Notes: generated by a model not told the origin, from the sequence alone. A stretch of DNA of 64,000 bases from Blastococcus sp. (GCA_025465355.1 JAODNN010000028.1:1-64000); one strand, 5' to 3'; positions 32,228 through 35,083 are shown, counted from the first letter of the stretch. Program-made: numbers and translations.

Positions 32228-33142
32228 TCAGCCCATGAGCACGCGGGCGATGGTTTCGCCGATCGGCTGACCGGTGTAGCTCTCGAACCAGCTGAACGCC
32301 GGTGAGGTGTTCACCTCGAAGCAGTACCACTGCCCGGACGGCGTGAGACGCAGATCGACTCCGGCCACGAGCAGGCCGAGGGACGCCGTCAACCTGACGG
32401 CGCGCTCGGCGACGTCGTCCGGCAACGTGGCGGCGGTCATCGATCGGGAATGCCCGGTCATGCCGGCGTACCGGTAGTCGACGGCGTCGCACACGATCCG
32501 GGCAGCGAAGACGTCGGCTCCGACGACATGCACCCGGTAGTCGTCACCGGGGATGAACTCCTGGAACTGTGTCGCGCACGTGCCGAGGCGGTCCAGCCTT
32601 CCGTCCAGCGTGGCGTGCGCATCGATGACGTTGGCGACGCTGCGAATACCGCTCGTCGACTTGTAGACGACGCGCCCGTGCCGCTCCCGGAAGTCGGCCA
32701 GTTGCTCGGCGTCATTGGTGACGACGGTCGCGGGCACGGAGAACCCGGATGCTTCGATGGGAACCAGTTGCGCAGGCTTCGAGTCATTCGATGCCATGGC
32801 GCTCGGCCGGTTGATGACGGCAACCGTCTCGGGCACCACCTCGAACAGCACCGACAACAGGGCGTCGACCGACGCGGCCTGCGCCGGTGTCACGGGCGCG
32901 CCGTGCTGCTCCGGCAGCTCGTAGGGGCGCATGTACATGCCGGTCAGCTCGTCGACGTCGACGGTCCGGTCGCCGATCGTCACGGAGCCGGTGACCGTTG
33001 CCTGCTCGCTGACGTGCAGGGACCCCGCGACTTCGGCATAGCGATGTTGGTCGAGAAGAACGACGTCGGCGTCGCGGGCGGAGAGTTCGCGCCGCACGAG
33101 CGCCATCGGCTCCTCATCGGGCAACCCCCACAGCAGGATCAC
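32228..33142 (-). CDS. RimK-like ATP-grasp ligase
   Basis: A 304-residue ATP-grasp enzyme, which activates a carboxylate as acyl-phosphate and joins it to an amine or hydroxyl. Order: pre-ATP-grasp domain (VILLWGLPDEEP; VAVINRPSAMASNDSK), ATP-binding strands (GRVVYKSTSG; TQFQEFIPGDDYRVHVV), and the metal-binding end LVAGVDLRLTPSGQWYCFEV followed by NTSPAFS. Relatives modify peptides and protein tails (glutamylation, graspetide cross-links). GTG 33142 lies 4 bp after the stop of the upstream gene. Last gene of a three-gene operon with a Lys/Asp-rich protein as possible substrate. Confidence 0.88.
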   Translation of the reverse strand: MILLWGLPDEEPMALVRRELSARDADVVLLDQHRYAEVAGSLHVSEQATVTGSVTIGDRTVDVDELTGMYMRPYELPEQHGAPVTPAQAASVDALLSVLFEVVPETVAVINRPSAMASNDSKPAQLVPIEASGFSVPATVVTNDAEQLADFRERHGRVVYKSTSGIRSVANVIDAHATLDGRLDRLGTCATQFQEFIPGDDYRVHVVGADVFAARIVCDAVDYRYAGMTGHSRSMTAATLPDDVAERAVRLTASLGLLVAGVDLRLTPSGQWYCFEVNTSPAFSWFESYTGQPIGETIARVLMG

Positions 33143-33146
33143 GCGA

Positions 33147-33902
33147 TCACCTGCTGCCGACGCTGCTCGTCCGGCCGGCGACGGGTGGGCGGAAGCCGGC
33201 CGGTTCGTTCCGGAGCTCGGCGGCGACCAGGTCGAGCACCTCCGGTTCGGTCGGGGCAGGCCAGGTGTCGACGCCACTGAGCCGGTCGTGGCGGAAGTAT
33301 GCGGTCAGGTACGGAACGTCGGCCGCAGCCGCCAGCTGTTGTGTCTGGGTCAGATACCGGTCATCGAGGCCGGGGCCGCGGAGGACCCCTCTCCCGCACA
33401 CGACCACGCGGTGATCACCGGGCTCCGGGCCGAACAGGTGAGTGTCGGGCGCCGCCCGTGTCCGGCCCCCCACCTGCTGCGCAGCCAGTGTGTCGATGCC
33501 GAGTCCGGCCGCGAACGCCGCCCACTGCACCGGCTGCCACATCGGCCCGGACAGCGACATCGGAACCGGCGGGTTGATCACAGGAACCGGAAGGCCGCGG
33601 AGCCAGGCACGCAGGAACGCGGTTTCCTCGGCGGCAACGTATTCCCGGTCGACGGCGCGGACGTGCGGCAGCTGGGACGACTCGATCGCGACGAGCCTGG
33701 TGACGACGCCGCACAGGTCGACGACCGTGAACGGGCCGTCATCCGCGACGCCCCTGCGCAGCGCCGGGTCGCCGGCGTAGGTCCATCCGGCCCGGGACAG
33801 GTCGGGCGGCGTCACGATGAGGCAGTCCGGCGCGAGCCTGCGCGCGAGGTCGCCCGCGGCCGCGTCCTCGGCCGCGCAGACGATGAGGGCCGCACCGGTC
33901 AT
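33147..33902 (-). CDS. Unknown protein resembling a pre-ATP-grasp domain
   Basis: A 251-residue soluble protein without a family I can name. It starts TGAALIVCAAEDAAAGDLA. A mid-protein stretch, VPVINPPVPMSLSGPMWQPV, parallels VAVINRPSAMASNDSK of the next gene's ATP-grasp enzyme. This suggests a shared pre-ATP-grasp fold without the full ATP-binding half. It may be a partner or degenerate paralogue of that enzyme. It lies 8 bp after the HELVE-motif gene and 4 bp before the ATP-grasp gene, so it is clearly co-transcribed. Confidence 0.7.
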   Translation of the reverse strand: MTGAALIVCAAEDAAAGDLARRLAPDCLIVTPPDLSRAGWTYAGDPALRRGVADDGPFTVVDLCGVVTRLVAIESSQLPHVRAVDREYVAAEETAFLRAWLRGLPVPVINPPVPMSLSGPMWQPVQWAAFAAGLGIDTLAAQQVGGRTRAAPDTHLFGPEPGDHRVVVCGRGVLRGPGLDDRYLTQTQQLAAAADVPYLTAYFRHDRLSGVDTWPAPTEPEVLDLVAAELRNEPAGFRPPVAGRTSSVGSR

Positions 33903-33910
33903 GCCGGCAC

Positions 33911-35083
33911 CTAGGTGGCGCCGACGTAGGGCCGTTCGGCCGGCTCGATGAACGACGCCGCGCCACCGTTCCCTCCGGTCTGACCGCCTGCCTGTCGGGC
34001 CGAACCCGGGGAGCCACCCGCTCCCGCGGCGAGCTCGGTGATGAGCGCGTCCAGCTGCTGGACGAGTGCGCGCAACTGGCTGACGGCGTCCCCCGCAGGC
34101 CCGGGACGTTCGAGTTCCTTCTCCTTGCCGCCGTCCTTGATCTCCTTGTGGCTCTCCTTGTCCTTGGCCCCGTCCTTGGCGTCCTTGTTCTCCTTGGGCG
34201 GCCTCTTGGTGTCCGGCCAGTCCTTGTGGTCCTTGTGGTCTTTGACGTCCTTCCGGTCCTTGTGGTCCTTGTTGTCCTGCTGCACCTTCGCGTCGTCGGG
34301 TACGACGCAGCGTGCGTCGGAGTTCGACCAGTAGCGCTGCACGAGCACGCCGTTGACCCTGGCCGTGTCGCCCTGGCAGACGTCGCCGATCTCGCACCAC
34401 CCGCCATGCCCCGTGCCGCATGCGGTCACGCTGGTCCACCCCGTCCCTTCCGGGTCGGTGCACGCTTCGACGAGCTCGTGGGAGAACACCTCGCTGAACA
34501 GGTCGAGGCTGTTCTGTGTGACCCAGGCGAAGGGGACGTTGGTCGCTGGTGAGCCGAACCAGTAGTAGGAGTGCTCTCCGATGACACCCGGGTTGCTGGC
34601 TGCGACACCGGTGGGCATGACCACCAGGTACAGGCCCTGGCCCGTGTTGCCGATGTCGCCGGCGGGGATCCGGCCGGCCGCACGCAGGTGCTCCACGAGG
34701 CCCCACACGTCATCGTCGGTGAACGGGTTCGGAGGGCTGGCCGGCGAGCCTCCCACGGCGTCGGCCACCACGGTGACGCTGCCGAGGCTGCCGTGACCGA
34801 CGCCGTACTGACTGAGCGAGTTCATGTAGTCAGAGGCGAGGATGGTCAGCACCGCGTTGGTGCACTCGCCCACGGTCGGTGTCGGAGGCGGCAACGCGTT
34901 CCAGGTCGAGCCCCAGAAGATCAGGTGTACCCGGATCGCGCCGAGGAGACGGCCGCCGCCGTTGCTGAAGGAGCCTGCGGCGCCGGCGACCCCCTCGCGT
35001 CCCTCGGCGGCTTCGGCGCTGAGAACTATCCCGTGCTGCGACGGAACTCCGAAGAGGGCGACACCCGCATCCTGCTCGGTCAT
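33911..35083 (-). CDS. HELVE-motif protein with Lys/Asp-repeat tail
   Basis: A 390-residue protein. Residues ~45-265 form a globular domain with FSHELVEACTDPEG and later WCEIGDVCQG, the His/Glu pattern of a metalloprotease-like family (HExxE plus distal acid), with paired Cys. Residues 270-325 are an extreme Lys/Asp tract (KDHKDRKDVKDHKDHKD). Residues 326-390 hold a short helix, a Gly-rich linker and the end SFIEPAERPYVGAT. No signal peptide. GGGAGG precedes the ATG. As first gene of an operon ending in an ATP-grasp ligase it is a plausible substrate for Lys-Asp/Glu amide cross-linking. That is inference. Confidence 0.8.
   Translation of the reverse strand: MTEQDAGVALFGVPSQHGIVLSAEAAEGREGVAGAAGSFSNGGGRLLGAIRVHLIFWGSTWNALPPPTPTVGECTNAVLTILASDYMNSLSQYGVGHGSLGSVTVVADAVGGSPASPPNPFTDDDVWGLVEHLRAAGRIPAGDIGNTGQGLYLVVMPTGVAASNPGVIGEHSYYWFGSPATNVPFAWVTQNSLDLFSEVFSHELVEACTDPEGTGWTSVTACGTGHGGWCEIGDVCQGDTARVNGVLVQRYWSNSDARCVVPDDAKVQQDNKDHKDRKDVKDHKDHKDWPDTKRPPKENKDAKDGAKDKESHKEIKDGGKEKELERPGPAGDAVSQLRALVQQLDALITELAAGAGGSPGSARQAGGQTGGNGGAASFIEPAERPYVGAT
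34109..34276 (-). repeat. Lys/Asp-coding tandem repeat region
   Basis: Minus-strand repeats of GACCACAAG and AAGGAC-type units code for the (K/D)(H/R/V/W)KD tract in residues 270-325 of the HELVE-motif protein. Units of 6-9 bp recur, so length variation by slippage is likely between strains. Confidence 0.7.

Follow-up and report, generated by a model that had tools for sequence, protein, structure and literature searches.

A graspetide-type ATP-grasp cassette from Blastococcus with a predicted substrate in the C-terminal tail of a full-length enzyme

A window of 64,000 nucleotides from Blastococcus sp., the whole stretch of DNA that we analysed, carries a cassette that we read as a system for graspetide-type modification, acting on a full-length enzyme at its C-terminal tail. 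We put the chance of this reading at roughly six in ten. The gene set, the fold of the partner protein, the kinship of the ligase, the conserved motif and the charged tract on unrelated domains are directly supported. Binding of the motif, heteromeric partnership, cross-linking and the position of the cross-links in the tract we infer. The motif FI-x4-RP in the tail would be a C-terminal recognition element (a 'follower') that recruits the ligase, and the ligase would act together with an inactive paralogue as its partner. In the adjoining tract it would phosphorylate the side chains of Asp and Glu, and Lys side chains would attack the activated residues to form isopeptide cross-links there. 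The result would be a stiffened or protease-resistant tail that is kept on the enzyme. This chemistry is plausible because published synthetases take a C-terminal leader, couple whole proteins, need partners and form Lys isopeptides. As to purpose, we can only guess that the tail makes a rigid stalk, lends stability, or attaches enzymes that have no signal peptide.

The three-gene ATP-grasp locus proposed in a preliminary description of this DNA is present as noted, and its ORFs are tightly coupled. On the minus strand, from 35083 to 32228, the first gene encodes a protein of 390 residues, the second one of 251 residues and the third an ATP-grasp ligase (Table 1). GGAGGT stands upstream of the first ATG, the second gene starts 8 nt past the stop of the first, and a GTG at 33142 lies 4 nt past the stop of the second. 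The longest ligase ORF, of 349 residues, is too long because the extra residues are absent from homologues; the GTG fits their N-terminus and is most likely the start, for a product of 304 residues. The flanking genes lie on the opposite strand, and the cassette is therefore a stand-alone three-gene unit. The host is an actinomycete with a genome of 4.9 Mb, in which no second copy of the cassette was found. Among 99 relatives, those of the same genus included, we found no match to the 251-residue protein. A search for plasmid-borne spread returned no match to the 390-residue protein and only distant ligases.

Table 1. Positions of the cassette genes and of the parts of the tailed protein, counted from the first nucleotide of the window
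Feature	Coordinates	Strand	Basis
390-residue tailed protein, proposed substrate	33911..35083	(-)	ORF; L075 homologue of same architecture
N-terminal domain with a putative metzincin-like fold, residues 45-262	34298..34951	(-)	AlphaFold2, VIA-align, hydrophobicity check
HELVE motif	34466-34480	(-)	sequence
Lys/Asp/Glu tract, KD-x repeats, residues about 266-326, proposed cross-linked core	34106..34288	(-)	composition, spacing
Predicted helix/coil between tract and motif, residues 331-355	34019..34093	(-)	AlphaFold2 model
C-terminal tail SFIEPAERPYVGAT with FI-x4-RP, proposed recognition (follower) motif	33914..33955	(-)	19/19 comparable loci
251-residue pseudo-ATP-grasp partner	33147..33902	(-)	AlphaFold2, Foldseek, VIA-align
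Graspetide-type ATP-grasp ligase, predicted catalytic, 304 residues	32228..33142	(-)	NCBIfam and PDB matches, conserved columns

Judged by profile comparisons, the ligase belongs to the graspetide-synthetase group and not to RimK/LysX, with PsnB as its closest relative. In the NCBIfam ranking the best model is TIGR04187, the GRASP_SAV_5884 peptide maturase (E 1.7e-45; 155.6 bits, under the cut-off of 350); the MvdD and MvdC models are weaker, and the RimK family model TIGR00768 weaker still (E 1.5e-15; 57.3 bits, under the cut-off of 143.4). PsnB in the PDB is matched at E 1e-22. A profile of 15 subfamily ligases gives PsnB at 1.3e-47, followed by PruB (6.5e-34), chryseoviridin CdnC, MdnC (1.5e-30) and MdnB, and reaches RimK at 3e-16. 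The ATP-grasp columns YK, QFQ, DYR and E-x-N, predicted to bind ATP and Mg, are invariant in 15/15 subfamily members. The common ATP-grasp fold and the TIGR00768 match could also be taken to mean that free amino acids, for example Glu, are added to the tail as in RimK-like ligation. However, the ligase is far nearer to the macrocyclases, its score falls short of the RimK-family cut-off, and its companion protein has a macrocyclase fold as well, and we regard this as highly improbable.

That companion, the 251-residue protein, had been set down as unknown. Its gene is real, but its identity had been missed: by fold it is predicted to be an inactive ATP-grasp paralogue. Sequence comparison found no similarity to the ligase or in Pfam, NCBIfam or PDB profiles, so that the kinship is revealed by fold alone. 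With an AlphaFold2 model from 14 homologues (mean pLDDT 79.7), the best Foldseek matches were graspetide macrocyclases (E 1e-6). VIA-align placed the model on MdnC with a Z of 17.7 (217 aligned, rmsd 3.4), spanning the full length of MdnC; other graspetide synthetases scored Z 15.8-17.0 and RimK 14. Set against the ligase alignment, the protein lacks the stretch containing the hinge and the Lys that binds ATP, and it has lost the metal-binding E-x-N. On the evidence of this model, the protein is a pseudo-ATP-grasp partner, a graspetide-synthetase fold minus the ATP-binding subdomain.

To collect relatives of the cassette, we used the ligase alignment as query and followed it up with genome searches, in which whole-genome sampling is partial and the numbers of loci are small. 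The three-gene set is rare: it recurs, with the neighbour gene intact, at another 18 independent loci, which belong to Actinomycetota, Chloroflexota, Acidobacteriota and Pseudomonadota, the last represented by one alphaproteobacterial MAG. The partner gene directly precedes the ligase in each of these, and across the four phyla the tailed gene adjoins the pair. Loci L058, L068, L073 and L074, and also the majority of those from the first ligase search, were left out as ordinary graspetide loci. Two more, L049 (cut by a contig end) and L051 (degenerate), were left out of the motif count; among the judgeable loci that remain, we searched for a homologous ligase lacking such a tailed protein and met none.

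The 390-residue protein ends in SFIEPAERPYVGAT. Its FI-x4-RP recurs in the protein beside the enzyme pair at every independent locus whose neighbour gene is intact (19/19), which bears out the preliminary description in treating the C-terminal motif as a conserved, recognition-like element, its role in recognition being predicted from sequence. What follows is mostly RPD[LV][SG], the window variant being RPYVG. In 17/19 the motif lies toward the C-terminus, usually behind the tract, and in L078 and L077 it is near the N-terminus. Its presence beside the enzyme pair exceeds chance. A scan of ORFs totalling 920,245 residues gave 43 matches, of which 2 are clearly stray, both in the window; the reversed motif had 1 match in the same ORF set. 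None of 30 M6 proteases gathered irrespective of the cassette contains FI-x4-RP (0/30), and for charge tracts they score 8 or less, compared with 11, 12 and 8 in the three cassette-linked ones. The tail and the motif are both absent from the HELVE proteins of L004 and L006, whose genomes do not have this cassette. As far as these M6 controls and HELVE proteins indicate, the tail tracks the cassette.

The domains in front of the tail are varied. M6 peptidases occur in L050 and L053, and by similarity in L056. Other peptidase domains are M64 in L054, M43 in L083 and trypsin-like in L043 (weakly in L048). Kelch/GlxA-like domains, resembling radical-copper oxidases, are found in L038 and L045, a choice-of-anchor D/Ig-like domain in L044 and one Ig-like domain in L076, and the N-domain has an unassigned fold in L037, L046, L047 and L055. 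An evident N-terminal signal peptide was seen in none of the tailed proteins of the set. The comparison among loci supports the original suggestion that the 390-residue protein is the likely substrate. The frequency of peptidase domains (M6, M64, M43, trypsin-like) would also suit an arrangement in which FI-x4-RP works as a tag for assembly or sorting, the tract is only a linker, and the enzyme pair modifies an unlinked precursor with the tailed protein as peptidase or accessory (cf. PMC8939145); peptidases that yield peptides from proteins encoded elsewhere were proposed by Makarova et al. (PMC8939145). But a common processing role misfits oxidase-like, Ig-like and unknown folds, and in L078 the motif stands at the head of a small peptide with a tract. 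We hold this arrangement to be quite unlikely.

Pfam and NCBIfam did not recognise the 390-residue protein itself. Its AlphaFold2 model comes from a four-sequence alignment and has a mean pLDDT of 57, and we therefore restricted the fold search to the N-domain. The best Foldseek match to this domain is weak (E 2.8e-3), and VIA-align superposes residues 45-262 on a snake-venom metalloproteinase with a Z of 10.2 (rmsd 3.7, 154 aligned). The metalloprotease-like domain of the preliminary description may have a metzincin-like fold, and its peptidase activity is putative: the metzincin zinc motif HExxHxxGxxH is absent from the domain, with HELVEACTDPE in its place. Conserved in the family are H-E-L-x-E, DPEG and a later EI-x-D-x-C. 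The domain may be linked to plant EXORDIUM/PHI-1 proteins, which have a similar HELxE...EIxDxC; Pfam gave no confirmation of such a kinship, and we treat it as a lead only. The idea of a built-in protease for self-processing did not survive as a general rule, since the N-domains of other loci can be oxidase-like, Ig-like or of no known type; because of this variation, the role of built-in leader peptidase was dropped. The Chloroflexota locus L075 encodes a protein truly homologous to that of the window, with the same architecture and beside the same enzyme pair. By a hydrophobicity check the window protein has no N-terminal signal peptide, and the HELVE-family protein at L006 799-1824 has an apparent one and no tail. 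These sequences suggest that a secreted HELVE family lost its signal when it became tied to the cassette.

Behind the N-domain, the Lys/Asp/Glu tract is disordered in the AlphaFold2 model, and a Gly-rich linker joins the coil to the C-terminal tail. A coil before the motif like that of the window protein is also present in L037, L048, L054 and L083. Such a tract is found in 16/19 motif-bearing proteins, is 45-101 residues long and contains about 24% Lys and 27% acid (16 proteins). Ser/Thr are scarce, which makes Lys the obvious nucleophile. Clear repeats occur in L083 (KKxEPD) and L075 (KEFKDVKDHKPEWKE). Acidic residues are enriched at +1 (z 10.5), +4 (z 6.4) and +5 (z 9.2) from Lys and depleted at +6 (z -6.9), scores that are inflated by tandem short repeats. 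The tract is absent from L044 and L077 and weak in L038, though the motif is present, and the modified site may therefore lie elsewhere than in the tract. Charged low-complexity tracts can also be plain linkers, which likewise counts against the tract as core.

The ligase might instead join the tail to another copy of itself, to a cell-wall peptide or to another protein, with the tract as a multivalent Lys/Asp handle. We consider this unlikely. The tracts are indeed long and multivalent, and no N-domain has an evident signal peptide, but no conserved acceptor protein is found near the cassette. To our knowledge natural graspetide links are intramolecular, a further point against external attachment. 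On the other side, a graspetide synthetase can covalently couple two proteins held together by coils (PMC12291112), and several members have a coil in front of the motif.

The best indirect evidence for the tract as core is that it stands alone as a peptide in sister lineages, as against an enzyme tail in the window lineage. In the ligase tree, the window-type ligases, two intermediate and eight further ones form one clade (support 100/100), which stands apart from 23 ordinary TgmB-like ligases; the window-type ligases occupy one side of a branch inside it, with weak support (32/80). Small Lys/Asp-tract proteins (FKDYKDRKDFKDYKDLKD...) lie beside partner and ligase in L023, L025, L031, L033 and L035. 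With L005 also among them, these small Lys/Asp-repeat proteins share a conserved end, LRASRxNRYLRxxGVVI, and from sequence the six loci are a probable separate graspetide-type group. Other sister sequences (L024, L034, L040) have small proteins bearing FI-x4-RP. Within the motif-bearing set, L078 9469-10116 (reverse-complement coordinates) encodes a protein of roughly 155 residues with FI-x4-RP at residue 10, beside a ligase matched at E 4e-96. Its modules run MSMSEGKEPFIGGEDRPNV, Lys/Glu tract, coil, which is leader-core order and the inverse of the window. The small leader-core-like peptides of L078 and the sister clades, together with the comparison of tracts, speak for the earlier view that the tract is the part likely to be modified.

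Compared with synthetases of the PsnB/TgmB type (TIGR04187, ThfB, PruB), the window system has the ATP-grasp fold and the conserved columns in common. It differs in its proposed substrate, a full-length enzyme, in a motif near the C-terminus and in the inactive paralogue in the pair. A classical graspetide precursor is short, with an N-terminal leader and a C-terminal core, in contrast to 390 residues with a folded domain and a C-terminal motif. Graspetide synthetase accepts a leader moved C-terminal of the core, and RPFG, carried by fuscimiditide precursors, is likely its key recognition sequence (PMC13003496); the motif of the window substrates likewise contains RP. The C-terminal leader of fuscimiditide was engineered (PMC13003496), whereas the arrangement here appears natural. 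A graspetide synthetase can also cyclise and couple whole proteins (PMC12291112). Synthetases that require a partner and Lys isopeptide links both exist, in rosaritide and corallotide; the large corallotide precursor contains repeated isopeptide links through Lys (PMC13097080). The rosaritide partner MirC is SurA/PPIase-like and the partner here is related to ATP-grasp proteins; the precursors of rosaritide and corallotide are not described as having an enzyme domain, unlike the tailed proteins here (PMC13097080). Group 32 of Carter et al. 2026, with its diverse neighbouring proteases, may overlap these loci (PMC13097080).

Makarova et al. 2022 described ATP-grasp branches 7 and 8 with peptidases of several unrelated families, branch 8 including a truncated inactive ATP-grasp protein; they predicted no precursor and proposed that the peptides come from elsewhere (PMC8939145). 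Likened by description, branch 8 fits our ligase, inactive ATP-grasp partner and M6/M64/M43/trypsin-like proteins. In the present loci, by contrast, candidate core and motif are part of the neighbouring enzymes, non-peptidases among them. Enzyme tails as precursors probably explain the 2022 loci that have peptidases but no precursor. We found no earlier report of graspetide-type modification of enzyme tails in the open-access literature. If our reading is true, graspetide chemistry extends, as a protein modification, from small peptides to full-size enzymes, and whole enzymes are the substrate of a natural-product pathway whose machinery was hitherto known for small peptides only. It would answer the open point of peptidase-bearing ATP-grasp loci without a visible precursor (PMC8939145) and give a natural case of a C-terminal leader, hitherto engineered only. 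Tract and FI-x4-RP would then make a genetically encoded tag to try on other proteins. For the broader proposal, a widely transferred natural system that builds Lys-Asp/Glu isopeptide ladders in unrelated enzyme tails by means of a C-terminal motif and a ligase with its pseudo-enzyme, we see the odds as slightly favourable.

Some loci have further features of their own. Past FI-x4-RP, a second conserved end rich in FDT is found in L048, L050, L053 and L056 (for example AKLAFDTLPPS and AKAEFDTLPPG); it is missing from the window protein. The protein at L077 10601-11506 (reverse-complement coordinates), encoded 3' of the ligase, with FI-x4-RP near its N-terminus and no tract, looks PqqD-like by eye. 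Four Streptomyces loci (L037, L046, L047, L055) have two large genes upstream of the cassette in common, which in L046 encode 755 and 1257 residues without a Pfam match. In L083, from Acidobacteriota, a radical SAM-looking gene follows the ligase, and the adjoining M43 protein has about eleven KKxEPD repeats. The repeats of the sister-clade small proteins take the form FKDxKDxKD..., and in L023 and L033 oxygenase-like genes come next in the locus.
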